Shown: positions 7,330-34,520 of the stretch, in pieces
Layout: every line of letters starts with the position of its first letter
Position numbering within the stretch: the first letter of the stretch is position 1
Origin: a virus
Virus record (IMG/VR): IMGVR_UViG_3300032293_000933
Span: 1 to 64,000 of that record
Length of the DNA stretch: 64,000 nt
Direction: 5' to 3' (one strand)
Translations under genes and position numbers: made by a program
Notes under the pieces: model-generated
What the model saw: only the letters and a program-made list of their open reading frames with translations
What the model was told of the DNA's origin: nothing
Databases searched by the model: none

Positions 7330-7407
7330 TGGATATAATTGAATATATTCTATAATTATAACATTAATTTTGAAATCAAAACACAAATCATGTTGTAAAG
7401 AACATTA

Positions 7408-7533
7408 ATGTATAAAATAGAGAGCAGCAATGAATTCATTATGCCAACACAGTCAACTTGGATTTCTTTTTTTATTATTTTTTCTTTAATTTTACTATTT
7501 GTATACTGGGGAGTTAATAACGCTTATGCCTAG
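7408..7533 (+). CDS. 41-residue single-helix membrane peptide
   Basis: One hydrophobic helix (TWISFFIIFSLILLFVYWGV) after a short polar lead; an internal ATG at 7441 would give 30 residues. The stop overlaps the start of the next gene (ATGCCTAG), supporting translation. No family is recognised. Confidence 0.45.
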   Translation: MYKIESSNEFIMPTQSTWISFFIIFSLILLFVYWGVNNAYA

Positions 7534-7690
7534 AGGACATGTGACCAAAGACATTATAAAGTGTGAAGTTCTTAAATTAAAATTAGAATTAGATAAAGAA
7601 TGGATGAATAAATCTGGATATGATCCAAAATGGTTAGCTCATCAGTATTTGAATAAGGTATTGGATAAACTTGATGAGTATGCTAGATAA
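7526..7690 (+). CDS. Small helical protein of unknown function
   Basis: A 54-residue protein: MPRGHVTKDIIKCEV then an amphipathic helix (LKLKLELDKEW) and WLAHQYLNKVLDKLDEYA. An upstream in-frame GTA/ATG extension to 7499 exists, but the ATG at 7526 overlaps the preceding stop and is preferred. Its stop codon overlaps a late promoter box. No known family is recognised. Confidence 0.68.
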   Translation: MPRGHVTKDIIKCEVLKLKLELDKEWMNKSGYDPKWLAHQYLNKVLDKLDEYAR

Positions 7691-14394: not shown

Positions 14395-14853
14395 ATGTCT
14401 AATACCAAACGGGTACAATTACGTAAAGGGACAGAGCTTGAACATTCGTCATTTACTGGTGCATTAGCTGAAGTCACATTCGATACTGATAAAGGTACAA
14501 TTAGAGTTCATGATGGACTTACGTTATCTGGCACTGAAATCCAAAAATCTAGATTAACAACTCTTAATTCTAGTAATAATGGAGATACATTAAGAACAAA
14601 TATTAAATATTTTTCTGATACATCAAGCGGTCCTTTTTCGGTATACTTACCCACTCTCCGATTTGTTGGAGATACTATTCATATAGCAGACTCCAAATAC
14701 ACTTGGAATCTAAATAATCTTACAGTAAATGCTCAAGGCAGTGACTTAATTAAGGACGGCACTGGGTTCATTGATACATTTTTAAACTGTGATTTGGCTG
14801 GTGCGTATGTTGAGTTAATTTGGGAAGGAACTTACTGGAGACTGTTCACATGA
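14395..14853 (+). CDS. Short tail-fibre-type protein with Mtd-like N-terminus
   Basis: A 152-residue protein. The N-terminal VQLRKGTELEHSSFTGA followed by EVTFDTDKGTIRVHDG is the widespread phage fibre attachment module (major tropism determinant/hyaluronidase-like N-terminal domain). The C-terminal half (YLPTLRFVGDTIHIAD ... GTYWRLFT) resembles the last 90 residues of the 1272-residue fibre at 15225. No ribosome binding site is visible. It probably sits in a fibre or collar complex. Confidence 0.75.
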   Translation: MSNTKRVQLRKGTELEHSSFTGALAEVTFDTDKGTIRVHDGLTLSGTEIQKSRLTTLNSSNNGDTLRTNIKYFSDTSSGPFSVYLPTLRFVGDTIHIADSKYTWNLNNLTVNAQGSDLIKDGTGFIDTFLNCDLAGAYVELIWEGTYWRLFT

Positions 14854-15224: not shown

Positions 15225-18200
15225 ATGGCTGATTTTAGATTAGGAAGACTAAAATTCAATTGGAGAAGCAATTGGGCTCCTAGCACCGCTTACGTCATTG
15301 ATGATATCGTAAAATTTGGTGCTAATACCTACGTCTGTACTACCAATCATACTTCAACGGCAAGTGAAGTTAATTGGTATGCTACTGACGAATCATACTG
15401 GTCCTTACATGTTGAGGGAATCAGAAATGTAGGTTTATATAGTGGCGGAACGTTCTATAAAAAGAACGACGTTGTTCTTTTTGGTAACACACAATACCGT
15501 GTAACTGCTGGTATTGGAACAACTGCAGGGTTAGTGTTTGCTGGAATTGGAACTACTGGTCCAGCAAATCCAAACGTAACTCCTTATGTTTCTGGATTTG
15601 CGGGTGAAGGTCTCTGGAGTCCTGGATTTGTTTACCAAACAGGAGACGTTGTTGCTTATCAGGGAACCTCATACGTTGCAATTACAACAACTACTGCCTC
15701 TGTTATACCTCCAACAGTATTATCTACTGAATGGAATGTCCTTGCAGAAGGATTTAATTCAGTAGGAATTCAAACGTATCAGTCTGGTTCAACCTATTAT
15801 AAGGGACAGTTAGCTACTGTTGGTGGTAATACTTATCAGTTAGTTGCTACTTCAGCAGAAAATGTTCACCCAACAAAAGGATTAACTGTTGGTGTTGGAA
15901 CAACTGTTGTTGGTGTTGCAGTAACTGCTTGGGAACTGTTTAATACTGGTCTAAGATACGCTGGTACATATTCAACTGTATCTGAATACTTCAGAAATGA
16001 TGTTGTTGAATATGCATCATCTTCCTACGTTGGTCTTGGATCTACTTCGTTTAAGAATATTACACCAGGAACAAATGCTGCGATTTGGGGAGCACTATCA
16101 ATTGGTGATTCTAATGCCCTTTTAACGACTAAGGGTGATATACTTATTAGGGATTCATCTGCTCCTTCAAGACTAGGTATTGGGCAGACTTATCAGGCTC
16201 TTGGTGTTGGTACTGATAGAGTTCCAACCTGGATGACCCTGGGAGATTCTACAAGAATTTATTACGTTGACCCAGAACTTGGATCGGACACCTTTAATGG
16301 TAGCACTCCAGACATGGCATTCAGAACTCTGAAGTATGCCTGTGATAATGCAAGTGCTATTACCAATATTACAAATGTTGTTTATGATCATATTACAGGA
16401 CTCACAACTATTACTGCACCATCTCACGGTATTCTCTATCCAAATATTACTGTTAGACTTGCAGACATTCAGTTTGAGTGTTTGAGTGGTGGTAGATCTT
16501 ATAACGTTACTGGATTTCAGTATGATGCATCTTCTGGTGTTGGTACAGTAACAATTGGTGCTGGTGCAACTGGAATTACGAATGGAACAAAGATTAGACT
16601 GAGAAATCTTGAATTTACTTGTACTGGTGGTTCTGGTATTACTACTACAATCTTCCCTGATGGAACAAGAGCACTTGGATATGATTATGTAGTTACTAAT
16701 GTTATCAGTCCAACTTCATTCTCAATGAACGTTGGTGTATCAACAATTAATCACATTTATGTATCTGGTGGTACATGTTTTGTTGGTGTTGATACAACGG
16801 TATTCCCAAGAAGTGTTCTTACCTCATATTATAATGTCATCGATGTTGTTAACAATAATACATTCACAGTTAACGCTGGTATTTCAACAATTGATCATGA
16901 TTATGTAAGTGGTGGTCAAGTAATTAACCTCTCACCTGCTGTTGTTAAGCTTTCAGCATCTGAATTTGTGGAGCAACTTCCAATTACAGTTCCACCATTC
17001 ACTTCACTTGTAGGTTCTACCCTTAGATCTTCTAAGATTCGTCCTGCTTCTGGATTATCTACTGATGGTCTTACTCCAAATAATCGTCAGACAATGTTTA
17101 GGTTGTCTGATGCTACAACCGTTCAGGGTCTAAACGTTGATGGTTTAGTTGGATTTGATTATGACCCAAATAGACCATACGAGTTGGAGGCAACAACCGT
17201 AAGAACTGGTATTGGTTCAACTGCTTGTGGTGTTTATTTTGCATTCAACCCCAACTCACCAATTCTGAATAAGTCTCCTTACGTTAAGGATTGTACTGCA
17301 TTCGGTAATCCTCCAACTGATGGTGGTTCAGGTGGTGCTGGTGTTGGTGTATTCATTGATGGCAATGTCCATGCATCAGGATTTAAGACAATGGTATTTG
17401 ATGCCTTCACTAACGTTCTTAGTGATGGTGCTGGATTTATTCTTGATAATGATGCGGGTTCTGAAATCGTTTCTTCCTTCACCTACTATTGCCGTTGGGG
17501 TTATTATGCTGGTGGCGGTTCAAGAATTCGTTCCGTTGGTGGTAACAACTCTTATGGTGATTATGGTGTTATTGCTTCTGGATTCTCTACTGCTGAGACT
17601 GCAAGAACATTAAGAGTATTTGGTGACAAACTTTCTACTGTTGTTGGTACAGTCAGTGGTACTGTTGGTGTTGGTATGACCATGAGAGGTGAAACTTCGG
17701 GTGCATACGCAACCTTTATTAACGATCAAATCTCTGCTGATGCAATTTACTTTAAGTATTATCCTGGATATGGTTCACCAAGTGCAGGTATTGGTACTAC
17801 AAGTTTTATTCCTGGTGAGTGGATTAGCTTCATTGGTGCTGGAACAACTGGTGCTATTAGAGTTGCAACTGCTGCAAATGCTGTAGGTGGACAAAAGGGT
17901 GTTCTGGTTGAACTTGATCTTGCTAATGGTAGCAATCTTCCTATAGTTGGTGATGCTATTGGATTTACTACTACTCGTGCAGGAGTAGGTAGTGATTTGG
18001 TTAATGGTCTACCAAGATTCTATATTGTTAATAACGTAACTGGATTTACAACTTCTTATGTACAGCACAGAGGATCTGTTGGTCTTCCACCTGTTACGTA
18101 TTCGGGTAGAGTAACTGTAACGTTCTCACCTGAGAAGACTGTTCAGACATTTGACACTCGTGCAGGAGTTGGTACTACTAGTACTGATGGTGGATCATTT

Positions 18201-19043
18201 ACTGAAGTTAGAACAAGATTCTCTAACGCTCGTCTGACTGGTCACGACTTCCTCTCAATTGGTGTTGGTAACAAGACTGAGACCAACTATCCAAATGTTA
18301 ATGAAGCAAACGTACAGCAGGGTAGAGAGACCAATAACTTTGGTCCTGGTAGAGTATTCTTCGTCTCCACTGACCAAGGTGGTAACTTCCGTGTTGGTCA
18401 ATTCTTCTCTGTTAACCAGTTAACTGGTGCTGCAACCCTGGATGCTAACGCATTCAACCTGTCAGGTCTGACAGAACTGAGACTGGGTTCGCTGGGTGGT
18501 CAGATTGGTGAAGCAATTAATGAATTCTCATCTGACGAAACTATGAGCGGTAACTCTAATACCGCTTGTCCAACTGAATTTGCAGTTCGTGGATTCTTAC
18601 TTAGAGATAAGATGGGTGTTGAGGCAATGGTTCCACCTAAAGGAACAACTGCTGAGAGACCTGTATCTCTAATCGAAGGTCAGTTCAGATATAATAGTAC
18701 TCTGAAGACCATGGAGTATTACAATGGTACTTCTTGGATTCCTGCAGGAGAAGTAACTCCAACAACAACTTCATCAACTGGTAACATTGTATCTTGGGGA
18801 ACATACTTCGTAAACACCTCTGGTGGTGCTGTTACCCTTACTCTTCCTGCATCACCAAACGTTGGTGATAAGATTACCTTCTATGATGTTGCAAAAACCT
18901 TTGATACTAATGCATTAACAATTGCTCGTAATGGAAAACTGATTCAGGGTGATGCAGATAACTTAACAGTTACAACTGAAAGTGCTGCATTTGCATTGAT
19001 CTTCTCTGGAAATACTTTTGGATGGAGAATCTTCTCGATCTAA
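15225..19043 (+). CDS. Large tail fibre with carbohydrate-binding-like repeats and beta-helix
   Basis: A 1272-residue protein. The first 280 residues hold about five repeats resembling chitin-type carbohydrate-binding modules: WAPSTAYVIDDIVKFGANTY, GGTFYKKNDVVLFGNTQY, WSPGFVYQTGDVVAYQGTSY, SGSTYYKGQLATVGGNTY and a fifth. YYVDPELGSDTFNGSTPD near residue 346 begins a right-handed beta-helix-like region running to about residue 1050. The last 90 residues form a cap shared with the protein at 14395. This architecture suggests receptor or glycan binding. A ribosome binding site (AAAGGA) precedes the ATG and a strong terminator follows the gene. Confidence 0.78.
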   Translation: MADFRLGRLKFNWRSNWAPSTAYVIDDIVKFGANTYVCTTNHTSTASEVNWYATDESYWSLHVEGIRNVGLYSGGTFYKKNDVVLFGNTQYRVTAGIGTTAGLVFAGIGTTGPANPNVTPYVSGFAGEGLWSPGFVYQTGDVVAYQGTSYVAITTTTASVIPPTVLSTEWNVLAEGFNSVGIQTYQSGSTYYKGQLATVGGNTYQLVATSAENVHPTKGLTVGVGTTVVGVAVTAWELFNTGLRYAGTYSTVSEYFRNDVVEYASSSYVGLGSTSFKNITPGTNAAIWGALSIGDSNALLTTKGDILIRDSSAPSRLGIGQTYQALGVGTDRVPTWMTLGDSTRIYYVDPELGSDTFNGSTPDMAFRTLKYACDNASAITNITNVVYDHITGLTTITAPSHGILYPNITVRLADIQFECLSGGRSYNVTGFQYDASSGVGTVTIGAGATGITNGTKIRLRNLEFTCTGGSGITTTIFPDGTRALGYDYVVTNVISPTSFSMNVGVSTINHIYVSGGTCFVGVDTTVFPRSVLTSYYNVIDVVNNNTFTVNAGISTIDHDYVSGGQVINLSPAVVKLSASEFVEQLPITVPPFTSLVGSTLRSSKIRPASGLSTDGLTPNNRQTMFRLSDATTVQGLNVDGLVGFDYDPNRPYELEATTVRTGIGSTACGVYFAFNPNSPILNKSPYVKDCTAFGNPPTDGGSGGAGVGVFIDGNVHASGFKTMVFDAFTNVLSDGAGFILDNDAGSEIVSSFTYYCRWGYYAGGGSRIRSVGGNNSYGDYGVIASGFSTAETARTLRVFGDKLSTVVGTVSGTVGVGMTMRGETSGAYATFINDQISADAIYFKYYPGYGSPSAGIGTTSFIPGEWISFIGAGTTGAIRVATAANAVGGQKGVLVELDLANGSNLPIVGDAIGFTTTRAGVGSDLVNGLPRFYIVNNVTGFTTSYVQHRGSVGLPPVTYSGRVTVTFSPEKTVQTFDTRAGVGTTSTDGGSFTEVRTRFSNARLTGHDFLSIGVGNKTETNYPNVNEANVQQGRETNNFGPGRVFFVSTDQGGNFRVGQFFSVNQLTGAATLDANAFNLSGLTELRLGSLGGQIGEAINEFSSDETMSGNSNTACPTEFAVRGFLLRDKMGVEAMVPPKGTTAERPVSLIEGQFRYNSTLKTMEYYNGTSWIPAGEVTPTTTSSTGNIVSWGTYFVNTSGGAVTLTLPASPNVGDKITFYDVAKTFDTNALTIARNGKLIQGDADNLTVTTESAAFALIFSGNTFGWRIFSI

Positions 19044-19119: not shown

Positions 19120-19914
19120 ATGGCATCATACGCAAGCTATAAAAAAGTTGCTGGAGAAAGTATCGTTGATGGTACAGTCACTGATGGTAAAATAGCGTCT
19201 ACAGCCTTTAAAAACTATTGTGTTAAATGGTTTTTTGGGTCTTTGGGTGATTGTACTCCTGGTTGTTGCTGTCTTTGGACTGTTCCAACTGGTGTCAGGA
19301 GAGTAACTTTTGAACTTTGGGGGTCTGGTGGAAACGGGCACGGAATGTGTTCAACCTCTAGATGTCATCACTATGCTGGTGCTCAAGGTGGATATTACAA
19401 TACCAGAACAATATCGGTTCAAGATGGATGGCAATATACCATCTGTGCTGCTGGAGTTCATCCTTGTGCAAGTATTGAATGCTATGCTTGTGATGGTTGT
19501 TCATCTTATGTGAATGGATGTAACTTAAGTAACTTCTGTGCGATTGGTGGTAAGGGTGGATGCTCCAACACCGACTGGAGCACAATGTGTAACTCTGAAT
19601 TTGGAAGGTGTTGTGTAGATCCTAGTGGAAGTGTTTGGGGTGGTGAATTTGCAATGGGTACACATGCAGGATCATTCTCTGGTTCATTTGCATGTCACTG
19701 CTATCGTCATATTGAATGTTCTTCTGGTGCTCCATTCTTAGGATCTGCATTTGTTAGTGGTGAATTAACCGAATGTTGGATGCGTTGTGGATGTTGGCCT
19801 GTTCCTTACGGTTCTGGTGGACAAGGAGCAATGACCACATACTGTGGTGGTGGTAGCTGCTGTGGCAGAGGATCTACTGGCGGTTCTGGTGTTGTTAAAA
19901 TTACTTACTTCTAA
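19120..19914 (+). CDS. Cysteine-rich adhesin-like virion protein, copy 1
   Basis: A 264-residue protein, first of three tandem paralogues. It has about 27 cysteines, among them GCCCLWTVPTGV, MCSTSRCHHY, PCASIECYACDGC, ECWMRCGCW and YCGGGSCCG. The frame is that of glycine-rich phage tail-fibre domains (WTVPTGV....FELWGSGGNG ... YTICAAG), with many positions turned to Cys. This suggests a compact, metal- or disulfide-stabilised tip. Receptor binding is inferred from family resemblance and location after the fibre genes. A short divergent N-terminus follows a conserved MASYASYKK. Confidence 0.75.
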   Translation: MASYASYKKVAGESIVDGTVTDGKIASTAFKNYCVKWFFGSLGDCTPGCCCLWTVPTGVRRVTFELWGSGGNGHGMCSTSRCHHYAGAQGGYYNTRTISVQDGWQYTICAAGVHPCASIECYACDGCSSYVNGCNLSNFCAIGGKGGCSNTDWSTMCNSEFGRCCVDPSGSVWGGEFAMGTHAGSFSGSFACHCYRHIECSSGAPFLGSAFVSGELTECWMRCGCWPVPYGSGGQGAMTTYCGGGSCCGRGSTGGSGVVKITYF

Positions 19915-19929
19915 GGAGCAGAAATAACC

Positions 19930-20730
19930 ATGGCATCATATGCAAGCTATAAAAAAATTAGTGGCGTCTCCATTGATACTGCATCTTTAACTGCTACAAA
20001 ATTTAATCCTGACGCCAGAAAAACTTTTGGAGTTCAATGGTTTTTTGGATCTCCAAATGCTTGTTCTACTGGTTGTTGCTGTCTTTGGACAGTTCCTACT
20101 GGTGTAACTGCAGTTAATTTTGAAGTTTGGGGATCTGGAGGAAGTGGAGCAGGTGCATGTTCAACCTCTAGATGTCAGCATTGGAGAGGATCTGGTGGTG
20201 GTGCATATAACTCAAAAATAATCACAGTATCTCCTGGATGGACTTATACAATTTGTGCAGCAGGAAATGGTCCTTGTTGTAGATTTGAGTGTCAAGGTTG
20301 TTGGGGATGTGCATCCTACGTGAATGGATGTAACTTATCAAACTTCTGCGGTCAAGGTGGATCTCCTGGTTGTGCTACTGGTGACTGGACAACTCCTTGC
20401 CATAGTGCTTGGGATTGTTGTTTGCAAGCAGGAAATAATGGTGGTGATTTTGGATATATGAATCACTCTGGTGCTTTTGGATCAGTTGAATGGTGGTTTG
20501 CTGTTGGATTCTGTCATTGTCATCATCAACAAACAAGAGCAACTTCTGCTCCATTAATTGGAACAGAAGTTCAAATGGCAATTAACTATTGTTGGATGAG
20601 ATGTGCATGTTGGACCGTTCCTTATGGTCATGGTGGACAAAACGCAATGAGTTCATATTGTGGCGGTGGCAACTGCTGTGGTCAAGGTAATATGGGCGGA
20701 CCTGGACTTGTTCGTGCTACTTATTATTAA
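19930..20730 (+). CDS. Cysteine-rich adhesin-like virion protein, copy 2
   Basis: 266 residues, paralogous along its whole length to the neighbours. The cysteine framework is conserved (GCCCLWTVPTGV, ACSTSRCQHW, FECQGCWGCASYVNGCNL, YCWMRCACW, YCGGGNCCG), while the loops differ, most strongly at residues 140-215 (GDWTTPCHSAWDCCLQAGN, VGFCHCHHQQTRA). It starts 15 bases after copy 1 in the same frame-like arrangement. Variable loops on a conserved scaffold fit a set of alternative or heteromeric receptor-binding tips. Confidence 0.75.
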   Translation: MASYASYKKISGVSIDTASLTATKFNPDARKTFGVQWFFGSPNACSTGCCCLWTVPTGVTAVNFEVWGSGGSGAGACSTSRCQHWRGSGGGAYNSKIITVSPGWTYTICAAGNGPCCRFECQGCWGCASYVNGCNLSNFCGQGGSPGCATGDWTTPCHSAWDCCLQAGNNGGDFGYMNHSGAFGSVEWWFAVGFCHCHHQQTRATSAPLIGTEVQMAINYCWMRCACWTVPYGHGGQNAMSSYCGGGNCCGQGNMGGPGLVRATYY

Positions 20731-20736
20731 TAAATA
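20729..20736 (+). promoter_or_regulatory. Late-promoter-like AATAAATA
   Basis: Box overlapping the stop of copy 2 and 20 bases before copy 3. Confidence 0.45.
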
Positions 20737-20756
20737 GAAAAAAAGGATTTGCAACG

Positions 20757-21548
20757 ATGGCATCATACGCAAGCTATAAAAAAATTGACGCATCGGTTCA
20801 AGTAGACGATAATAGTATTCCAGCAACTGCTGTTGCTTCTGGAGCATTTGATACTTGGTGTGTTAAATGGTTTTATGGGACTCCAAATAGATGTTCTCCT
20901 GGTTGTTGCTGTCTTTGGACTGTTCCAACTGGCGTCAGAAAAGTTTATTTTCAACTTTGGGGGTCTGGTGGAAACGGTCATGGAATGTGTTCAACCTCTA
21001 GATGTCAGCATTATGCAGGAGCTCAAGGTGGATTTTATAATGCAAAAATGTTAACAGTGTGTCCAGGATGGACTTATACCATTTGTGCTGCTGGAGTTCA
21101 TCCTTGTGAATCCATTGAATGTTTTGCTTGTCATGGTTGTGCATCCTATGTAAATGGTTGCAATTTATCCAATTTCTGTGCTATGGGCGGTGATGGTGGA
21201 TGTGCTAATGGTAACTGGCAAGAGGCTTGCTTCTCAGATTGGGGTAGATGTTGTGCAGCTCCAGGAGCTATGGGTGGAGATTTTGGTATGAATAACCATA
21301 GAGGGGCGTTCTTTGTTCAAACTTCTAATTGCCATTGCCATTGTCAAGGATCATCACCAACTGCAGCACCATTTATTGGAACACAAGTTCAAACTCAAAT
21401 TCATGAATGTTGGATGCGTTGTGGTTGCTGGACTTCACCATACGGACATGGTGGACAAGGAGCAATGACCACATACTGTGGTGGTAGTAGCTGCTGTGGT
21501 CAAGGTTCAACAGGAGGTCCAGGATTAGTTAAGATAAGTTTCCTATAA
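20757..21548 (+). CDS. Cysteine-rich adhesin-like virion protein, copy 3
   Basis: 263 residues, closer to copy 1 than to copy 2 (shared FNFGGL/LWGSGGNGHGMCSTSRC region, CAAGVHPC.SIECFACHGC, ECWMRCGCW). Its first bases repeat those of copies 1 and 2 almost exactly (ATGGCATCATACGCAAGC). The middle region around residues 165-205 differs and is His/Cys-rich (TSNCHCHCQGSS). The function is likely the same as for the other copies. Confidence 0.75.
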   Translation: MASYASYKKIDASVQVDDNSIPATAVASGAFDTWCVKWFYGTPNRCSPGCCCLWTVPTGVRKVYFQLWGSGGNGHGMCSTSRCQHYAGAQGGFYNAKMLTVCPGWTYTICAAGVHPCESIECFACHGCASYVNGCNLSNFCAMGGDGGCANGNWQEACFSDWGRCCAAPGAMGGDFGMNNHRGAFFVQTSNCHCHCQGSSPTAAPFIGTQVQTQIHECWMRCGCWTSPYGHGGQGAMTTYCGGSSCCGQGSTGGPGLVKISFL

Positions 21549-21589: not shown

Positions 21590-22333
21590 ATGGCAAAAAT
21601 TATTTCAGTAGAATTTGATCTTGGTTTACCTAACGAATACATGGTAGACCACTCTCAGTCGGAAGGTAAAACTCGTAAATTTACCTACCATGGTCCTGAT
21701 AAAATTTATTTACAACTTGGTGAAGACGGTACAGAAAAGCATGGTCCTTTAATTGAAGATGATATTATTGACGGTAGACCTGTTCCCGCAGATGTTGTTG
21801 AATGGTATGAAGTTGATTGTGCAACAAATCCTCTAGTGTGTCAATTAAGAGGACCAGTTTTAAATGAACTTCAGGAATCGTATGATGATGAACCATATGT
21901 TCATCCAAATTCACCAGTTCTTGATGGAACAAGTACAATGAAAATTTATGGTCCACCAAAACCATGCGACATTTATGATGCAACAACTGGAATTAAAAAA
22001 GAGGCAGATGGGTCTCTTTCTGTAAGAAAGATATCTGCACTTGAAGCAATTCATGGGGATGAAAAAAATATCACAATACTTGATCTTAAAAGACAAAGAG
22101 ATCAACTTCTTAGAAATAGTGATGGACAAGTTGCGCCAGACATGCCAATTGGGTTAAGAACAGAATGGGAATCCTATCGTCAAAAATTAAGAGACTTTCC
22201 TGCAGTAATTGAATCTGCTGGAATTGATCCAAATATTGCATTCTACATGTTCCCTGACCAACCTGCTGGTGTAACTTCTGAGGCAGAGTATCAAATTCTA
22301 TTGGAACAGCAAGCAAAAGCAGCAGAAGGTTAA
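21590..22333 (+). CDS. Tail-fibre assembly chaperone-like protein
   Basis: A 247-residue protein. The C-terminal third (LKRQRDQLLRNSDGQVAPD ... EWESYRQKLRDFPAVIE) has the signature of phage tail-assembly-chaperone domains, in which R..LL..SD is followed by W..YRQ.LRD.P. The N-terminal part is beta-rich and acidic with no clear family. It lies directly after the cysteine-rich trio, so it may help fold or attach these proteins. No membrane segment or signal peptide. Confidence 0.72.
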   Translation: MAKIISVEFDLGLPNEYMVDHSQSEGKTRKFTYHGPDKIYLQLGEDGTEKHGPLIEDDIIDGRPVPADVVEWYEVDCATNPLVCQLRGPVLNELQESYDDEPYVHPNSPVLDGTSTMKIYGPPKPCDIYDATTGIKKEADGSLSVRKISALEAIHGDEKNITILDLKRQRDQLLRNSDGQVAPDMPIGLRTEWESYRQKLRDFPAVIESAGIDPNIAFYMFPDQPAGVTSEAEYQILLEQQAKAAEG

Positions 22334-22361: not shown

Positions 22362-22895
22362 ATGAGTTATACTTTATATAATTTTGATTATATTAGAGAT
22401 AATCAATTAGAAATAATTAATGAACTGAAGATATCCTATGATAATATGGTAAAATATGGAGTCTTTGACGCGACAAAGGCTTATATTTACTATAATATCT
22501 TTGGGGTATCTTCTCCTTCTATACACATGTATAGAATTTATCAAAAAGTTAGAGAAATTGTAAGGGAAAAATTTCCTACAGAAATTTTGTGGATACAATC
22601 GTGGTTAAATTATCATGATTATGACCAAGTTTTAGGTTGGCATAATCATAGTGCTGGTTGGCATGGATATATTTCCATTGAACCTCAAGACACTATAACA
22701 GAATTTGAAAACTGGACTATTGATAATGAATGTGGTAACATTTATTTTGGACCTGGAAAACATTCTCATCGGGTAGTTAATCTTAGAAAATATAAAGGTA
22801 AGAGAATAACTTTGGGATTTGATATTATATTTGCAAATGATTATGGTGAGAATGCTTTACCTACAGAAAATTTTGGAGCAATTCCTTTACTATAA
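22362..22895 (+). CDS. 2OG-Fe(II) oxygenase-like protein
   Basis: A 177-residue protein with the double-stranded beta-helix pattern of phage 2OG oxygenases: LGWHNHSAGWHGYISIEP (likely metal His residues), NIYFGPGKHSHRVVNL (distal His) and RITLGFDIIF. These enzymes hydroxylate with iron and 2-oxoglutarate, but the substrate is unknown. First gene of the accessory cassette; it overlaps the next gene by one base. Confidence 0.65.
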   Translation: MSYTLYNFDYIRDNQLEIINELKISYDNMVKYGVFDATKAYIYYNIFGVSSPSIHMYRIYQKVREIVREKFPTEILWIQSWLNYHDYDQVLGWHNHSAGWHGYISIEPQDTITEFENWTIDNECGNIYFGPGKHSHRVVNLRKYKGKRITLGFDIIFANDYGENALPTENFGAIPLL

Positions 22896-23599
22896 TGTTT
22901 GAAGTAAATACTGATTTAAGAATAAAGATAGAAAGAGTCCAGGATGTTTATTGGTCTGCAACAGACACTGGAATAGTTAGGTTTGATTCATCTCGTCCAG
23001 TAGAAAAATTAATTTTTATTATTGACAATTTTTATCAAAATCCAGATGAAATTAGAAAATTAACAAAAGAATCTGAATTATATACCGACGAAGATAAACT
23101 TGCAGGTGCAATAGGTAGAAGAGTTTGGAGAGAAGAACCAGAATTAATGTATGAGATGGCATATCAAATGTGTCATGTTTTTGAACAACTATGTCAACAT
23201 GAAGACTGGCAACTTGAATTTGATAAAGAACACCATTATCAAAAATGGAACTCAATGAGATTCGTTGTTAATGTAACTAATAATAAAGAAATTGTTGATT
23301 CTGGAAGGAACTGGGACACTATATGCCATATAGACGGTCCTTATAATAAATGGGCATCTTTGGTTTACTTAAATACTCCAGAGGAATATGGTGAAGAGGG
23401 ATCTGTTCCAGGAACAGGATTTTATTCTGTTGTTCCTCCAAATTCTGATGGATCAATTAATAAACCAAAGTTGCAATATGTATGCCCAGTGAAGTATAAT
23501 AGGGCAGTATTGTATGATGCAAATATGGTTCATGGTGCTATTATGGAACCAGATATGTATAAAGATTATGATAGACTGACTCAAATCATGTTCTTTTAA
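22895..23599 (+). CDS. DUF6445-like putative oxygenase
   Basis: A 234-residue protein. FIIDNFYQNPDEIRKL near residue 48 is typical of DUF6445-type proteins, which are predicted to adopt a 2OG-oxygenase fold. CHIDGPYNKWASLVYLNTPE and GTGFYS form the metal-site region, and RAVLYDANMVHGAI with RLTQIMFF the distal His and Arg. Families of this kind occur next to flavin halogenases in bacteria, and a halogenase lies 3 kb downstream here. The assignment rests on motif memory and needs a profile search. Confidence 0.62.
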   Translation: MFEVNTDLRIKIERVQDVYWSATDTGIVRFDSSRPVEKLIFIIDNFYQNPDEIRKLTKESELYTDEDKLAGAIGRRVWREEPELMYEMAYQMCHVFEQLCQHEDWQLEFDKEHHYQKWNSMRFVVNVTNNKEIVDSGRNWDTICHIDGPYNKWASLVYLNTPEEYGEEGSVPGTGFYSVVPPNSDGSINKPKLQYVCPVKYNRAVLYDANMVHGAIMEPDMYKDYDRLTQIMFF

Positions 23600-24787: not shown

Positions 24788-26581
24788 ATGGCAGAATGGA
24801 TTGCGGCTGTTGCCAGAGGACATAACTCTGGCGTTTGTTTACTTCACAATGGAGAAATTGTTTTATCGATTGAGGAAGAGAGACTATCTAGACATAAGTA
24901 TGATGGTGGACCATTGGCATCAATGGTTAAAATACTTGAATATACTGATAAATTAGATTACCTTGTCATTGCCCACACTCAACCTTTAGGGTCTGCTGGT
25001 ACAATTGATTTTACTGGTGATGATCTTTATACTGGAATGGCAAGAAAGTTGGGATTGATTGATAGGAAGTGTGACCCTTATAATCATCCACAAGTTATTG
25101 ATTTAAGTAGAACACATCATAAACTCCATGCAGCATGTGCTTTTTATAGATCTGGATTTAAATCTGCAGTATCTGTAGTCGTTGATGGTGCTGGTACTTT
25201 TATTCCAATGAATCTTGGTAGAACTCAAGAGATGACTTGGGAGTTGGAATCGATATTTTCTTGCGAATATCCTGCAAATATTAAAACAATTTATAAACAT
25301 CAAGCTGGAAAAGGTCCTTGGGGGTCTGCTAAAATTCCTTTTATGGATAGCACTGGTGAAGATGAAGAGGGAACTCATGAATTAATTCTGGATGAAAGTG
25401 CTGGTATTACCAAAGCATATGAAGCTGTTACTCAATATTGTGGATGGCCACCTATTGAAGCAGGTAAGACAATGGGATTGTTCCCTTATGGGCAACCAAA
25501 TGAAAATATTCCTAAAATTTACACTGATGGTGGCGGCGGTTTATGGAAAACTGCTGATAGAAATGTAATTGTTCCAACATATCCAAATGGAGCTGTTGTT
25601 AATGAGGGTAGATATGAATCTTTATATACTCCCTCTGATTGTGAAGATTTGACTCTACTCGAAAATCGTAGAGATATGGCTTATGCAATTCAAGTAGAAT
25701 CCCAGGCAATGGTTCTTGATTTGATTCGTAAGGCTGTGGATATGAGTGGTAACAATAATGTGGTTCTTTCTGGTGGATACGGTTTGAATTGTGTTGCAAA
25801 TTATTGGTATCTTGAACAACTAAAAGATGAAAATATTAATCTGTTTGTGGAACCAGTAAGTAATGACGCTGGGACTGCGATAGGAGCAGCTTTGTTAACA
25901 TACCATCGAGTCACTGAAAGTGATACAATTAGAACTAAAATTGATGATCTTTATACTGGCCCCTCTTATATGTACACTGAAAATCAAATTAATCAAACTG
26001 CTGAAAAATATAATGCAACTTCAGTAATTAATGCAACTCATGAAGATGTAATTGATTTAATTACCAGTAAAAATATTGTTGCTTTATTCCAAGGTAGATC
26101 AGAAGCAGGTCCTAGAGCACTTGGGAATAGATCTATTCTTTATGATCCTCGTGATCCTAAAGGAAAGGACCATGTAAATACAATTAAACGCAGAGAATAC
26201 TTCCGACCATTTGCTGGATCTATCCTTCAGGATTGTGTTCATGATTGGTTTGATCTTCGTGGGATGGAAGATACTCCATTTATGATGTATGCTGTTAAGT
26301 GTCAAGAAGGAATAGAAGAAAAAATTCCAGCCATCATTCATGTTGATGGTACTTGTAGAATTCAAACAGTTACTCAGGAGCAAAATAAACATTATTATGA
26401 TTTGATTAATGTGTTTTATGAGAGAACTGGATGCCCTATTATCTTCAATACTTCATTTAATCTCGGAGGAGAACCTCTTGTAGAGACTTTAGATGATGCT
26501 TGTAGAACTCTAGCTAATTCTGGAATTGAATATCTATATCTTCCTGAGTATGGTAAATTAATCACAATTAAAAACAAATGA
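24788..26581 (+). CDS. O-carbamoyltransferase, NodU/CmcH/TobZ family (copy 1)
   Basis: A full-length 597-residue protein. The N-terminal Kae1-like domain has ARGHNSGVCLLHNGEI and the metal-site RTHHKLHAACAFYRSGF (near residue 107), then LSGGYGLNCVANYWYL. The C-terminal YrdC-like domain has FQGRSEAGPRALGNRS (near 435) and IFNTSFNLGGEPLVE. The family uses carbamoyl phosphate and ATP to carbamoylate sugars or antibiotics. It overlaps the halogenase gene by four bases, so the two are co-translated. One of three family members in the cassette. Confidence 0.92.
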   Translation: MAEWIAAVARGHNSGVCLLHNGEIVLSIEEERLSRHKYDGGPLASMVKILEYTDKLDYLVIAHTQPLGSAGTIDFTGDDLYTGMARKLGLIDRKCDPYNHPQVIDLSRTHHKLHAACAFYRSGFKSAVSVVVDGAGTFIPMNLGRTQEMTWELESIFSCEYPANIKTIYKHQAGKGPWGSAKIPFMDSTGEDEEGTHELILDESAGITKAYEAVTQYCGWPPIEAGKTMGLFPYGQPNENIPKIYTDGGGGLWKTADRNVIVPTYPNGAVVNEGRYESLYTPSDCEDLTLLENRRDMAYAIQVESQAMVLDLIRKAVDMSGNNNVVLSGGYGLNCVANYWYLEQLKDENINLFVEPVSNDAGTAIGAALLTYHRVTESDTIRTKIDDLYTGPSYMYTENQINQTAEKYNATSVINATHEDVIDLITSKNIVALFQGRSEAGPRALGNRSILYDPRDPKGKDHVNTIKRREYFRPFAGSILQDCVHDWFDLRGMEDTPFMMYAVKCQEGIEEKIPAIIHVDGTCRIQTVTQEQNKHYYDLINVFYERTGCPIIFNTSFNLGGEPLVETLDDACRTLANSGIEYLYLPEYGKLITIKNK

Positions 26582-28101
26582 TAAAACCAATTCGTAGGAT
26601 CGTAATTGTTGGCGGTGGAACTTCTGGATGGCTCACCGCAGCATTTCTTTTAAAAAAAATTAGAAAGAATACTGAAGTAGTAGTTATTGATAAGAAACAG
26701 TCGGAAACTGTTGGTGTTGGAGAAGCAACTATTTTAAGTTTTAAACAATTCATGAACTCCTGTGGATTTCCTGTAGATGAATGGTTGCCTTGTATTGATG
26801 CAACCTTTAAATCTGGAATTTTGTTTACAGACTGGCAACGTGAAGGAACAGACTTGTGGCATCCTTTTGCTTTCCCTGAATATAATCCATGGGAAACTAA
26901 TCTTTTAAATATCTGGACAAACCATAAGGATAAAGAATTTTTTACTCATGGATGTGCTCTTTATCATCCAGCAGTAACTGAGAATAAAGTTGACCCAACA
27001 AACATTGGAACTTATGCTAATCACATTGACTGTGGTAAATTAGTTGAATTTATTAAAAGTAAAATCATAGATAAGATTACATTTGTTTCAAGTGAAGTTA
27101 TTGATGTAAATCGTAATCAAAATGGTGGAATCAATTATATAACCATAGAAGGTGGGGAACAAATTGAGTCGGATATTTTTGTTGATTGTACAGGATGGAA
27201 GAGACTTCTAGGTGCAGAACCAGATACTGTTGATTGTAGAGATAGATTATTTTGTGACACTGCAGTTGCTGGGCATGTACCATATGAAAATATTGACGAA
27301 GAGTTAACACCATATACAAAGTGTTGTGCAGTTGATCATGGTTGGATATGGAAGATACCTACACAAACTAGGATTGGTTCTGGACTAGTTTTTAATCGAT
27401 CAATTACTGACCCCGAAGAGGCAAAAGATTATTTTGTAGAGCATTGGAATCACAGAATTGATAGGGAAAGTTTAAAGGTTTTGGATTGGACCCCATACTA
27501 CCATAACAATTTCTGGCAAGATAATGTGGTTTGCATTGGGTTATCTGCTGGATTTATTGAACCTCTTGAGAGTACTGGTGTAGCATTAATTTGTGCTGGA
27601 ATTATTGAACTTGCCGAAGCATTTAAAGGTAATTTTTATAATACAAATGATATATTGGCATATAATGTTAAAATGAAATGCTTCTTTGAAAATTGTGTGG
27701 ATTTTGTTAACATGCATTATTCAAGAAATCAAAGAACTACTGGTAAGTTTTGGAAATTTGTTCAAGATACTTTTAAATTTACTGAAGCACAAAAGTTTTA
27801 TGAGTATGAAGTTCAAAATAATCCTTATGAACTTCCTAGAGATGGTGACTATATGTTCGTGGGTGAAAACTGGAGTGTTTTTATGGCACAACTTTTAGAT
27901 AAAGATACAATTGAACCAAAAAATAATGGATTATCTTCTGAACAATCTAAAGGTTTAATGGAACAGTTTTATGAAAATGAAATTGAGAAACATAAAAATT
28001 CTATTTTACACAGAGAATTTGTTGAACAATGCTTAGGAAAAATAAAATCTGGAATTCCATTAAATATTTCTTATACTTGTGCAAGCCCTGTTAAATTTTA
28101 A
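26578..28101 (+). CDS. Flavin-dependent halogenase (tryptophan halogenase family)
   Basis: A 507-residue protein. IVGGGTSGWLTAAFLLKK (residues 9-26) binds FAD, VGVGEATI follows, TFKSGILFTDW holds the Lys expected to form the reactive halogenating species, and WIWKIP near residue 255 is the diagnostic W.W.IP motif that separates halogenases from monooxygenases. VCIGLSAGFIEPLESTGV completes the flavin site. It probably chlorinates or brominates an aromatic or activated substrate, using a partner flavin reductase that is not visible here. It is translationally coupled to the carbamoyltransferase before and the oxygenase after. Confidence 0.9.
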   Translation: MIKPIRRIVIVGGGTSGWLTAAFLLKKIRKNTEVVVIDKKQSETVGVGEATILSFKQFMNSCGFPVDEWLPCIDATFKSGILFTDWQREGTDLWHPFAFPEYNPWETNLLNIWTNHKDKEFFTHGCALYHPAVTENKVDPTNIGTYANHIDCGKLVEFIKSKIIDKITFVSSEVIDVNRNQNGGINYITIEGGEQIESDIFVDCTGWKRLLGAEPDTVDCRDRLFCDTAVAGHVPYENIDEELTPYTKCCAVDHGWIWKIPTQTRIGSGLVFNRSITDPEEAKDYFVEHWNHRIDRESLKVLDWTPYYHNNFWQDNVVCIGLSAGFIEPLESTGVALICAGIIELAEAFKGNFYNTNDILAYNVKMKCFFENCVDFVNMHYSRNQRTTGKFWKFVQDTFKFTEAQKFYEYEVQNNPYELPRDGDYMFVGENWSVFMAQLLDKDTIEPKNNGLSSEQSKGLMEQFYENEIEKHKNSILHREFVEQCLGKIKSGIPLNISYTCASPVKF

Positions 28102-28727
28102 TGAAATTAGTTAAGGCATTTAAAGATTTTATAACTGAAGAAGAACGAGATATTCTAAATGAATGGACTTTATCAAATTATAAAAATGATTATTTTATTG
28201 ATCCAAAAATGGACTCTCGTGGGTTGGAAAAAACAAAATTAACAACTAGGTTTGCAAATCCTCTTGTTAATTATGGTAATCCACTTTTAGATTCTTCTTC
28301 TTTTGATCATATTAATTTTGTCGTATCTTCTAATCCAAACTTCAATTATCCTGATTTTGTATATGAACTTCAAAAAAGAATAGCATTAACTTTTGATTTT
28401 GAAGATTTTGGATTATCACCTGTCGGAAAGGAAGGTATTATAACTGAGATAAGTTTTACTGGTGGTACAATTCACCCTCATATTGATCCTTCTTGGTTTG
28501 AAGGAACCTATACAGTTCACTGTAATTTTATAACACAAAAGCCAAAGTCTGGCGGGGTTACTTATATTCAAGGAGAACCCTGGGAAGTAAATGATACTGA
28601 TTTATTAATGTATATTGTTTCAGAAGCAGAACATTCTGTTGATGAGATAGTAGGTGATAAAGAAAGAATTCTTTGGGTTTTTAGTTTTATGTTATCAAAA
28701 AAAGATACTGAGAGAATATTCCAATGA
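28101..28727 (+). CDS. 2OG-Fe(II) oxygenase-like protein
   Basis: A 208-residue protein with a likely H.D...H facial triad: GGTIHPHIDPSW near residue 132 and SEAEHSVDEI near 175, then KERILWVFSF as the 2-oxoglutarate-binding strand. It overlaps the halogenase stop by one base and the next gene by four. The substrate may be the same molecule that the halogenase or the sugar enzymes modify; that is inference. Confidence 0.7.
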   Translation: MKLVKAFKDFITEEERDILNEWTLSNYKNDYFIDPKMDSRGLEKTKLTTRFANPLVNYGNPLLDSSSFDHINFVVSSNPNFNYPDFVYELQKRIALTFDFEDFGLSPVGKEGIITEISFTGGTIHPHIDPSWFEGTYTVHCNFITQKPKSGGVTYIQGEPWEVNDTDLLMYIVSEAEHSVDEIVGDKERILWVFSFMLSKKDTERIFQ

Positions 28728-29131
28728 AAAAAATATTTGTTAATGGGACTTTTGATTTACTTCATAGAGGTCATCTGGAACTTTTAAATTTTGCAAAATC
28801 TTATGGTGATTATTTAATTGTTGCCATAGACACTGATGAAAGAGTAAGGCAAAAGAAAGGTCTAAATAGACCAATATATAATCAAGATGAAAGAAAATTT
28901 TTTTTGAATATGTTAAAACCTGTAAATCAGGTTGAGATGTTTTCCAGTGATGAAGAATTAGAACAATTGATAAAAGGATTTAATCCTGATATAATGGTTG
29001 TAGGATCTGATTGGAAAAATAAACCAGTAATTGGTTCTCAATATGCAAAAAGATTAATTTTTTTTGATAGGATAGGTGACTATGCAACCACAAAAACAAT
29101 ACACAGTATTATTAGTAGGGGAGACTTGTGA
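28724..29131 (+). CDS. Nucleotidyltransferase, HldE C-terminal-domain type
   Basis: A 135-residue stand-alone cytidylyltransferase-fold protein. VNGTFDLLHRGHLELL (residues 6-21) is the HxGH nucleotide-binding motif, followed by LIVAIDTDERV, DIMVVGSDWKNKPVIGS and YATTKTIHSI. These match the adenylyltransferase half of bacterial HldE/RfaE (ADP-heptose synthesis), including the late TT.II motif. Glycerol-phosphate cytidylyltransferase is the main alternative. The neighbouring kinase makes HldE the better call. Confidence 0.8.
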   Translation: MKKIFVNGTFDLLHRGHLELLNFAKSYGDYLIVAIDTDERVRQKKGLNRPIYNQDERKFFLNMLKPVNQVEMFSSDEELEQLIKGFNPDIMVVGSDWKNKPVIGSQYAKRLIFFDRIGDYATTKTIHSIISRGDL

Positions 29132-29861
29132 GGATAGTTATATTTACGGAAGCGTAGATAGAATAAGTCCAGAGGCTCCTATTCCTATTTTAAAATATGA
29201 ATATACAGAAACATCTTTGGGAATGTCTGCTAATGTGAAAAGAAATTTAGAATCTTTTGGAGTATTTGTAAATCATATTACTAATAAAGATTTAATTAAA
29301 AAGAAAAGATTTATCCATAGTGGTTCAAATCAACAAATGATGAGAATTGATGAGGATGATTCTGTTGATCCAATTAGACCATCAGAGGTCAGGAGTGCTT
29401 TTTTGCATTTGGAGTATGATGCTGTTGTTATATCTGATTATGATAAAGGTTTTTTGACAACACAAGACCTAAAAGTTTTTTGTCAAAATTTTAAGGGACC
29501 AGTTTTTATTGATACTAAAAAGAAAGATTTATTTACTGAACCAAATGTAATCTTTAAAATTAATCAAAGAGAATATGATAATTTAATATCTGAACCAGAA
29601 CAACAACATTTAATTATCACTAAAGGATCTTCTGGAGTTGAATATTGTAAATTAATGTATCCATCTGAAAAAGTAAATGTTTTTGATGTTGTTGGAGCAG
29701 GTGATACGTTTCTCGCAGCACTTACATATGCATTTTTAAAGTATGAGAATTATGAAGCAAGACTAGATTCTTCTATTAGATTTGCAAATAAAGCAGCAGC
29801 AATATCTGTACAGCACTATGGATGCTATACTTTAACCCAGGAAGATATTAAGGAGATTTGA
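29082..29861 (+). CDS. Heptose 7-phosphate kinase, HldE N-terminal-domain type
   Basis: A 259-residue PfkB/ribokinase-family protein. DRISPEAPIPILKYE is specific to the HldE/RfaE1 kinase subfamily. VVISDYDKGFL and DVVGAGDTFLAALTYA (catalytic Asp, anion hole) are intact. It would phosphorylate D-glycero-D-manno-heptose 7-phosphate at C1. It overlaps the nucleotidyltransferase gene by 50 bases from the ATG at 29082 (a GTG at 29076 is possible). Compared with fused bacterial HldE, the two activities are separate and in reverse order. About 50 residues shorter than the bacterial kinase domain. Confidence 0.84.
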   Translation: MQPQKQYTVLLVGETCEDSYIYGSVDRISPEAPIPILKYEYTETSLGMSANVKRNLESFGVFVNHITNKDLIKKKRFIHSGSNQQMMRIDEDDSVDPIRPSEVRSAFLHLEYDAVVISDYDKGFLTTQDLKVFCQNFKGPVFIDTKKKDLFTEPNVIFKINQREYDNLISEPEQQHLIITKGSSGVEYCKLMYPSEKVNVFDVVGAGDTFLAALTYAFLKYENYEARLDSSIRFANKAAAISVQHYGCYTLTQEDIKEI

Positions 29862-29862
29862 C

Positions 29863-30939
29863 ATGGCAGTTTACTGGGGAGTAAATTTATCTCATGATGG
29901 ATCTATCTGTCAATTAAAAGAAAACGGTGAGATTGATTGGTTTGTTGAGGAAGAAAGGTATTCTAGAGTCAAACAACTAGAACTTCCTTTTAGTCCAATT
30001 CCTTTCATAGATTATAGTAAGGAATTATATTCATTACAAATATCTGGATTATATGAACGTTGGGACCAAAGAACATTAGAAGAAACAGCAAAACATTTTT
30101 CAACACTCACTCAAAAATTTTATAATATTCAAAATTGTGATGATAGAAAGAAAGTAACATATGAGTTATTTCTTGAACATCATGTTTATCATGCTGCTTG
30201 TGGATTCTATAATTCTGGGTTTAAAGAATCTGCAGTTCTAGTTGTTGATGGTATGGGTAATTATATTAATGATGATTATCACGAAGTAGAAACAATATAT
30301 ACGTTTAAATATCCTAATAAAGTTAAGTGTCATCATGTGAATGTGACAAATTCCTTTATGAATTGTGATAGGCATCCTTTAGATCGACAACCAATAGGAA
30401 TTGGAATGATTTATAGTGCGATTGCTGACTATCTTGGGTTTGGAACTTTGGGGTCTGGTAAACTTATGGGTATGTCTGCATATGGAGAGGAAGACCCAAA
30501 TATTAAATCTTTTATTATTGATGGTAAATTGGATTCAACACAATTTTATAGGACAAAGTATGGAGTTAATTTCATACCTTATGACTATGTAATTTTTGAT
30601 CAAAAAGAATTAACTCCAGACAATCCAAAAATTCAAAATCTTTATAATCTTGCATATCGTATGCAAAAAGACTTTGAATGTTATATGATTAATTTGATAC
30701 TTTATACTCTTGATATTACTAAATCAAAGAATTTAGTTCTTACTGGAGGATGTGCATTAAATTGCGTTGCTAATTATAAGTATCTTGATATATTACCAAA
30801 TGATGTTAAACTATATGTGGAACCAATTTCTACAGATGCTGGAACTTCTATAGGATTATCTAAGTTATTGTACCATCAAAAAACACAATCAACACATCCA
30901 AAACCATTAAAGACCTTATACCTGGGATTAGAACAATGA
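29863..30939 (+). CDS. Carbamoyltransferase N-terminal domain only (copy 2, truncated)
   Basis: 358 residues that match only the Kae1-like half of the NodU/CmcH family: GVNLSHDGSICQLKENGEI, EHHVYHAACGFYNSGF near residue 105, and LTGGCALNCVANYKYL near 293. It ends at the point (LKTLYLGLEQ) where full-length members continue into the YrdC-like domain; that domain, with its GPRALGNRS motif, is missing and the next gene starts at once. It may be inactive alone, or may work with the C-terminal domain of another copy. Confidence 0.85.
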   Translation: MAVYWGVNLSHDGSICQLKENGEIDWFVEEERYSRVKQLELPFSPIPFIDYSKELYSLQISGLYERWDQRTLEETAKHFSTLTQKFYNIQNCDDRKKVTYELFLEHHVYHAACGFYNSGFKESAVLVVDGMGNYINDDYHEVETIYTFKYPNKVKCHHVNVTNSFMNCDRHPLDRQPIGIGMIYSAIADYLGFGTLGSGKLMGMSAYGEEDPNIKSFIIDGKLDSTQFYRTKYGVNFIPYDYVIFDQKELTPDNPKIQNLYNLAYRMQKDFECYMINLILYTLDITKSKNLVLTGGCALNCVANYKYLDILPNDVKLYVEPISTDAGTSIGLSKLLYHQKTQSTHPKPLKTLYLGLEQ

Positions 30940-31268
30940 AAGTATATTGTATTGACATTGATGGAGTTATTGCTCAGCACAATGGGATTTGTAAAACTTG
31001 TAAGTACGAATCATCAACTCCAATAAAAGAAAATATTGAAAAAATAAACAAGTTATATGATGAAGGAAATGTTATAAAGTATTTTACTGCAAGGGGAATG
31101 GGTACTTATAATGATGATTCTAAACTTGCCACGTCAAGGTGGAAGGAATTTACTGAACTGCAACTTAGAATTTGGGGATGTAAGTACCATTATTTAATTA
31201 TGGGCAAACCCTCCGCAGATTACTACATAGATGATAAGGCTATAAATTCTGATGACTTCTTCAATTAA
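30936..31268 (+). CDS. HAD-family hydrolase of polysaccharide clusters
   Basis: A 110-residue protein. CIDIDGVIAQ gives the HAD nucleophile DxD; IKYFTARGMGTY is motif II, and MGKPSADYYIDDKAINSDD supplies the motif III lysine and motif IV acidic residues. Small HADs of this type are common in capsule and LPS clusters. In the heptose pathway a HAD phosphatase (GmhB) removes the 7-phosphate; this protein could fill that role, although it is not a close GmhB by eye. Four-base overlap with the preceding gene. Confidence 0.75.
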   Translation: MKVYCIDIDGVIAQHNGICKTCKYESSTPIKENIEKINKLYDEGNVIKYFTARGMGTYNDDSKLATSRWKEFTELQLRIWGCKYHYLIMGKPSADYYIDDKAINSDDFFN

Positions 31269-31605
31269 AATAGTTCCCAAAGGTTGGGGTTACGAAAAGT
31301 GGATTGTTAATAATGCAAAATATTGTGGTAAACTTTTATTTTTTGAAAGGAATAAAAGATGTTCCTGGCATTATCATAAAATAAAAGAAGAAACTTTTTA
31401 TCTGCAAAGTGGAAAGATATATTTGTGGTATGGATGGGATGATGATTTGGCAAAAGCAGATATGAAAATCATGGAACCAGGAGATTCATTTCATGTTCCC
31501 ATAGGACTAAAACATCAGATGATTGCCTTAGAAGATTCTGATCTATTTGAATTTTCTACGGAACATTTTGAAGATGATAGTTATAGGATAATTAAAGGGG
31601 ATTGA
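31252..31605 (+). CDS. Cupin, sugar-isomerase-like
   Basis: A 117-residue single cupin domain with WGYEKWIVN, CSWHYHKIKEETFYL (metal-binding H.H...E) and PGDSFHVPIGLKHQMIA. It resembles the C-terminal cupin of mannose-6-phosphate isomerase/ManC type II proteins. It overlaps the HAD gene by 17 bases. It may isomerise or bind a sugar phosphate, and GmhA, the isomerase that starts heptose synthesis, is not otherwise seen here; linking the two is speculation. Confidence 0.75.
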   Translation: MTSSIKIVPKGWGYEKWIVNNAKYCGKLLFFERNKRCSWHYHKIKEETFYLQSGKIYLWYGWDDDLAKADMKIMEPGDSFHVPIGLKHQMIALEDSDLFEFSTEHFEDDSYRIIKGD

Positions 31606-31606
31606 T

Positions 31607-32188
31607 ATGGAACTAAAAGATCTTATTTTAGAAATGAATGAATTTGTTTCTAAAAAAACATGTCAAGATATGATTGATTGGTTTTGGGATAATGAAGATA
31701 TTCATACTATGGGGAAGGTTTATGGTGGAGAAGATTTGACCAATCGAAATAATGTTTTAAATCTTGACCATAAGAATACAATTCAAGCATATCCACATCC
31801 AGACGATCCTATATCAGATGTTTTGTCTGAAATTATATTTTCTGGATATGCTAAGTATCAAGAACTTCTTCCAACACCACAAGGACAACCTTTATGTGCA
31901 ACAACATATTCTGTTAGAATTTATCAAAAGGGAGTTGGTAAATTTTTAGATCATGTTGATCAGTCTGCTGGACCGAATGTTACTAGAGTATTTGGAATTA
32001 TCTTATACTTGAATGATGTTGAGGAGGGTGGAGAAACAGACTTTTTAGACTATGGATTTTCAATTAAACCAGAACAAGGTAAACTATTAATATTTCCTTG
32101 TAATTATTTGTTTAGGCATCAAGGTAATATTCCTATCTCTGATGACAAATATATTTTTACTGCCTTTATTAATTTTGCCGATGTATAA
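31607..32188 (+). CDS. Prolyl-4-hydroxylase-like 2OG-Fe(II) oxygenase
   Basis: A 193-residue protein with the P4H pattern: IYQKGVGKFLDHVDQSAGP (H.D at about residue 115), IILYLNDVEEGGETDFL, and LFRHQGNIPISDDKYIFTAF (distal His and the 2OG-binding basic residue, here Lys). It would hydroxylate a protein or small-molecule substrate. It lies between the cupin and another oxygenase-like gene, whose ATG overlaps its stop (ATGTATAA). Confidence 0.82.
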   Translation: MELKDLILEMNEFVSKKTCQDMIDWFWDNEDIHTMGKVYGGEDLTNRNNVLNLDHKNTIQAYPHPDDPISDVLSEIIFSGYAKYQELLPTPQGQPLCATTYSVRIYQKGVGKFLDHVDQSAGPNVTRVFGIILYLNDVEEGGETDFLDYGFSIKPEQGKLLIFPCNYLFRHQGNIPISDDKYIFTAFINFADV

Positions 32189-34280: not shown

Positions 34281-34520
34281 ATGAAATTTACAGTATATTC
34301 TAAGGACGGTTGCCCATATTGCAACAAAATTGAACAACTACTCAAAGTAGCAGAACTTCAACATGTAGTATATAAACTTGGTAGAGATTTTAATCGTGAG
34401 GAATTTTATGCTGAGTTTGGTTCAGGATCAACTTTTCCTCAAGTAATTATGGATGATAAACACCTTGGTGGATGTACAGATACTGCAAGATATTTAAAAG
34501 AAAATAATATTATTAATTAA
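34281..34520 (+). CDS. Glutaredoxin
   Basis: A 79-residue protein with the redox-active CPYC at residues 11-14, the cis-proline region GSTFPQVIM and the glutathione-binding GGCTDTARYL. It is a normal small glutaredoxin of the type that serves ribonucleotide reductase in T4-like phages; it could also recycle the peroxiredoxin at 1134. Its last four bases overlap the converging bilin reductase gene. Confidence 0.92.
   Translation: MKFTVYSKDGCPYCNKIEQLLKVAELQHVVYKLGRDFNREEFYAEFGSGSTFPQVIMDDKHLGGCTDTARYLKENNIIN

Follow-up and report, generated by a model that had tools for sequence, protein, structure and literature searches.

Three tandem genes for cysteine-rich proteins in a cyanophage genome very probably encode fibre-tip proteins, and the balance of the evidence tilts towards a 1:1:1 heterotrimeric adhesive cap that the three products form on a trimeric fibre. 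The genes lie in a window of 64,000 nucleotides, which is the whole stretch of DNA that was analysed, from a virus record of 99,165 bases. This record encodes both reaction centres of a photosystem and tail proteins of the T4 type; judging by this gene content, the virus is a cyanomyovirus with Synechococcus and Prochlorococcus phages as relatives. The Photo_RC (Pfam) genes, of reaction-centre type and typical of cyanophages, were found at positions 2163-3245 and 3485-4546. The features of the locus are as follows:

15225..19043, + strand: tail fibre protein, 1272 aa (PHROG 9851 tail fiber, E 8e-259)
19120..19914, + strand: putative tip paralogue 1, 264 aa, 27 Cys, 10.2% (PHROG 4205, E 1.2e-52)
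19930..20730, + strand: putative tip paralogue 2, 266 aa, 26 Cys, 9.8% (PHROG 4205, E 3.5e-51)
20757..21548, + strand: putative tip paralogue 3, 263 aa, 28 Cys, 10.6% (PHROG 4205, E 2e-54)
20787..20855, + strand: copy-specific stem of paralogue 3, residues 11-33, from positional nearest neighbours and identity by position (equivalents at 19150-19218 in copy 1 and 19960-20028 in copy 2)
21282..21407, + strand: copy-specific loops of paralogue 3, residues 176-217, from identity by position
21590..22333, + strand: tail-fibre-assembly-type gene, 247 aa (Pfam Phage_tail_APC, 33.9 bits, cut-off 26.6; PHROG 9740, E 1e-33)

As a sequence-only reading of this stretch had proposed, the three adjacent open reading frames form a tandem triad of cysteine-rich paralogues. 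About one residue in ten is indeed cysteine (9.8-10.6%), compared with a mean of 1.02% and a maximum of 3.7% in the other window ORFs examined. Pairwise identity of the paralogues was 53-62% by BLASTP and 55-63% in the alignment, and the PHROG 4205 profile covered their full length (residues 1-264, 1-266 and 1-262 of copies 1, 2 and 3, respectively). The common cysteine/glycine framework that the same reading described was also recovered, whereas its placement of the differing loops at residues 140-215 was not quite right, the hotspots of difference being residues 11-33 and 176-217. Regarding the conserved 5' ends, copies 1 and 3 carry ATGGCATCATACGCAAGC without change, and copy 2 has ATGGCATCATATGCAAGC instead.

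A PDB sequence search with the tip proteins gave no match, and Pfam Gly_rich_2 (PF21722, gathering cut-off 24.3) scored 25.4 bits in copy 1 and 13.7 in copy 3, with no hit in copy 2. The AlphaFold2 model of copy 3, built from 126 sequences, reached a mean pLDDT of 84.4 and a pTM of 0.79; its sole helix comprises 4 residues near the N-terminus. With this model, the best Foldseek match in the PDB was the Pam3 fibre 7ypx_A (E 6.6e-7, prob 1.00; query TM 0.51, target TM 0.53). The Bxb1 tail tip ranked next, ahead of the TNF-like/glycine-rich domains of ALK/LTK. The latter are animal receptor kinases, and the resemblance to them is a fold analogy only. In a library of viral models, proteins of S-CAM3 and P-SSM2 were nearest, together with many phage glycine-rich or tail proteins; Syn9 gp38, another match from a fold library, was not found in the part of the record that was searched. 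Since the predicted fold matches the receptor-binding end of the Pam3 fibre, the fibre-tip reading is supported, and the likeness to glycine-rich receptor-binding domains suspected earlier was borne out by this match as well as by the neighbouring fibre and assembly genes. By analogy, the three proteins would bind a receptor.

The same neighbours accompany the triad throughout its relatives. The C-terminus of the fibre lies upstream in 69/69 loci with enough flank, and the assembly-type gene follows directly 3' of the triad in all 106 loci with room for it; the gene after the S-CAM3 triad is also PHROG 9740. The fibre encoded at 15225..19043 would be the shaft that carries the tip, the tip proteins would be present in the virion and dock on this fibre, and the product of 21590..22333 would act as folding chaperone of the tip. 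The C-terminal domain of the window fibre (about 18810-19040) is homologous to S-CAM3 gp159 (E 4e-17), a separate small gene located between the fibre and tip genes, as would be expected if this domain is an adaptor. Just 5' of the fibre gene, positions 14395-14853 encode a small tail protein whose N-terminal domain is of the major tropism determinant type (Mtd_N). Downstream of the host-contact genes there is a sugar-type cluster (22362-23599, 24788-32188 and 35191-36810), an arrangement much like that in S-SSM7 and P-SSM2; it holds three carbamoyltransferase genes, a tryptophan halogenase (26578-28101), a 2OG-Fe(II) oxygenase (31607-32188) and a DUF6445 gene (22895-23599).

The number of copies turned out to be constant. 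Every one of the 107 complete loci in the close family, S-SSM7 and Sf-FS3 among them, had exactly three; the loci that did not show three were contigs truncated at one end and that of the distant P-SSM2. The loci were gathered mainly via copy 3, and flanks of 6 kb would reveal extra or missing neighbours. In S-SSM7, the annotated SSSM7_117 (L001:9542-9871), which overlaps SSSM7_116, the third tip gene there, is probably not a real gene. A second kind of triple set was found in S-CAM1 and S-CAM3, in which three cysteine-rich relatives (24-36 Cys), about 29% identical to the close family, are followed by an assembly gene. This set occurred in 8/8 S-CAM1/S-CAM3-type loci fetched, some of them near-duplicates; apart from the S-CAM1 and S-CAM3 genomes, six viral contigs of this type carry three, one of these being S-CAM3 itself. 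The annotated starts of S-CAM1 gp106 and gp107 (L116:5830-6762 and 6789-7688) look too short, and in-frame upstream starts restore the common N-terminus (LRGLLGKE, LRDLLG). P-SSM2-type phages have two related genes around a chaperone-like gene (36 Cys each in P-SSM2), and the whole P-SSM2 genome contains related genes at two places.

A tree of the head region set the copies of the close family apart from those of the S-CAM phages and of the P-SSM2 phages (support 99/99, 91/82 and 100/99), so the sets probably arose or were homogenised separately. The S-CAM set of three apparently originated separately from that of the close family; either the triple sets had separate origins or the copies were homogenised early within each lineage. 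Grouping by locus still occurs in the head region for some copies of the deep lineages L072 and L073. Either scenario leaves the constant number of three in need of an explanation.

Within the close family each copy has mostly kept its own identity. Labelling the 189 sequences of a tree by gene position required 7 changes, compared to 89 when shuffled, and the nearest neighbour came from the same position in 97% of cases for residues 1-45 and in 100% for residues 151-215, but only in 59-68% in the conserved core (residues 46-150). Identity in residues 11-33 was 0.30 between sequences of the same position and 0.20 between those of other positions; for residues 176-217 the values were 0.46-0.49 and 0.34-0.35. 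Residue 35 is Gly in copy 2 of all 90 distinct loci and mostly Cys or Asn in copies 1 and 3. Comparison of the window with four relatives gave dN/dS values of 0.09-0.21, and close pairs gave 0.05-0.29 by segment. The residues 11-33 stem would be the part that chooses the trimer partners, and the loops at residues 176-217 are a possible contact surface for a receptor or a partner. Charge complementarity of the stems was considered as a partner determinant as well; copy 2 is more acidic (-2.2, versus -0.6 and -1.4 in the others), a difference that was not decisive, and this candidate was set aside.

The constant number, the positional identity and the purifying selection together indicate that each copy is a fixed component distinct from the other two, and that the copies are not a repertoire in constant turnover. 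The variable set of tips that had been suggested from the sequence alone is therefore not what the relatives contain: their number is constant, they group mainly by position, and their loops are under purifying rather than diversifying selection, and on these grounds a variable, recombining repertoire was rejected. Recombination through the conserved 5' ends fared no better. Synonymous-codon identity in residues 1-10 was 0.58 within loci against a background of 0.51 between loci, with a similar excess elsewhere and hence no signal local to the 5' ends, and 5' gene conversion was rejected.

Altogether, the close family combines a fixed triple set with positionally distinct subunits, the tree following position with few exceptions, and the near-constant three copies among relatives suggest that one of each joins a mixed tip. 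A packing model was obtained from locus L034, in which the three genes share one frame and would give an 806-residue p1-p2-p3 chain if the stops were read through. Its input comprised 36 natural rows, of which 13 were full triples and two were registered to the wrong gene pair. AlphaFold2 returned a pTM of 0.77 (mean pLDDT 69.8), next to 0.79 for the copy 3 monomer. For three domains without a fixed mutual arrangement, a pTM of about a third of the monomer value is expected by our own estimate; as the fused value is near that of the monomer, the model places the three domains as one body. Short extra strands appeared in the N-terminal stems, and a Foldseek search with the fused model gave nothing beyond the monomer result. 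The prediction, of modest confidence and run without a homotrimer control, supports packing as a trimer but does not establish a mixed composition.

We propose that the three genes provide the receptor-contacting tip of the long tail fibre in a T4-like cyanophage. Each product would combine a short motif for docking at its N-terminus (MASYxSYKK) with a short stem and a cysteine-rich TNF-like/glycine-rich head. From the homotrimeric fibre encoded directly upstream, the adaptor domain would lead to a cap with one copy per paralogue, in which the common N-terminal motif docks the subunits, the stem together with the copy-specific loops sets their neighbours and order, and the chaperone-like product of the next gene assists folding and assembly. 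Such a cap would show the cyanobacterial surface three different loop faces, and the conserved cysteines may stabilise the glycine-rich heads through disulphides formed after lysis or through bound metal. We infer the heterotrimeric state, the 1:1:1 composition and the chaperone role from these combined lines of evidence. A further-reaching version, in which the heterotrimer is obligate, the paralogues arose more than once and the ~80 Cys per tip are knit by disulphides or metal into a lattice whose maturation takes place outside the reducing cytoplasm, is put forward as a tentative idea.

The main rival, which we regard as rather unlikely, is that the products form three separate homotrimeric adhesins with their own receptors on alternative or different fibres, kept for hosts with multiple receptors. 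Pam3 gp24, the nearest solved relative, is a homotrimer, the common N-terminal motif would let all three dock on one fibre, and the loops do differ among the copies. However, the members of a receptor repertoire would be expected to come and go, whereas the number stays at three in the 107 loci; the loops are conserved per position under purifying selection, and directly beside the set there is just a single long fibre gene and a single assembly gene.

A heteromeric tip of another stoichiometry, for instance a ring, or a 2:1 trimer whose tip lacks the third product because this is located elsewhere, is improbable, as triple sets recur in two groups. The two paralogues of P-SSM2-type phages, with related N-termini around the chaperone-like gene, speak in its favour and indicate that a 1:1:1 tip is not universal, 2:1 being needed there. 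It would also fit the co-occurrence of C35 in copies 1 and 3, seen together in 36 loci, and its constant absence from copy 2, but this association comprises too few independent changes and is not significant. Very improbable is a role outside the tip, either as another virion decoration or as non-virion carbohydrate-binding or metal-storing proteins adjoining the fibre gene: PHROG 4205 is without assigned function, 10% Cys also fits a metal-binding protein, and no virion proteomics covering these proteins was found in the literature, yet the fold matches fibre tips and the fibre and chaperone neighbours are invariable. The S-SM1 virion proteome (Sullivan et al., PMC3037559) concerns a different phage.

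The pattern of the cysteines themselves was also analysed. In the close family 17 Cys positions are near-invariant, and about 12, including 52, 78, 83, 110, 117, 141, 166, 192 and 218, recur in most of the distant relatives. Cys105 is paired with Tyr, His or Phe at 135 in 188/192 sequences and Trp105 with Cys135 in 58/58, both Cys never occurring together; on the locus tree this state changed 10, 5 and 14 times in copies 1, 2 and 3, and where neither position holds Cys no other Cys is lost. This argues that not all of the cysteines are in fixed disulphides, and Cys-aromatic packing or an alternative ligand seems to fit the 105/135 exchange better than an obligatory internal disulphide. Repeated in all copies, this reciprocal exchange is a possible test case for Cys-aromatic packing. 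A search for disulphide pairs by co-loss of Cys yielded no convincing positive pairing, and the strong covariation signals were all negative (C105 versus C135, C143 versus C165). The cysteines may serve in disulphides, in metal binding or in packing. The genome with these cysteine-rich tips carries a glutaredoxin gene (81-aa open frame) at 34290-34463; a thioredoxin match was absent from the phage record.

If the three-paralogue tip holds true, it would show how a symmetric fibre can bear three different host-facing surfaces. Since the triple set recurs in two cyanophage groups, its subunit composition is testable in the cultured S-SSM7, S-CAM1 and S-CAM3. The Cys load, ten times that of other window proteins, raises the question of oxidative or metal-dependent virion maturation in seawater. 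To our knowledge, the tip of a phage fibre is almost without exception either a homotrimer or one adhesin that acts as a cap. In animals, C1q is a symmetric assembly carrying three different faces. In phage S16 (gp38, PDB 6F45) and in T4-like gp37/gp38 systems, a glycine-rich adhesin caps a trimeric fibre. That adhesin is a single one, in contrast to the triad, which had no gp38 family match in Pfam and PHROG searches; 6F45 was not among the best 50 Foldseek matches of the copy 3 model.

Three different tail proteins can make one heterotrimer, as seen by cryo-EM for the small beta-sandwich proteins gp35, gp36 and gp37 of mycobacteriophage Mysterious (PMC13252515). The likeness drawn here is one of composition, and these proteins form a baseplate accessory ring of a siphophage. 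The nearest solved relative in fold is Pam3 gp24 (PDB 7ypx, 7yfw), a homotrimeric receptor-binding fibre with the dedicated chaperone gp25 (PMC9608196). Both phages are cyanobacterial myophages, and both systems share the TNF-like and glycine-rich head and an adjacent fibre-assembly gene. Unlike the triad, gp24 is a single gene whose homotrimer docks on the baseplate by a long N-terminal helical bundle; the triad has three paralogues, 10% Cys and a separate long fibre upstream, and its model is without such a bundle. Neither cysteine nor disulphide is mentioned in the Pam3 paper (PMC9608196), and no papers on cysteine-rich cyanophage fibres were found in the literature searched. P-SSM2 gp304 and gp306 (PHROG 35878) are likewise cysteine-rich, of the same fold class and located beside a fibre and a chaperone-like gene, but they are two in number and have longer N-termini. 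The PHROG 4205 proteins of S-SSM7, Sf-FS3, S-CAM1 and S-CAM3 belong to the same family, with the same neighbourhood and triple sets and no difference in kind. As these are annotated only as hypothetical, the papers searched do not seem to have described this arrangement: the fold and the class of role are already known, while the Cys load, the fixed triple and its recurrence seem to be new to the open literature searched.
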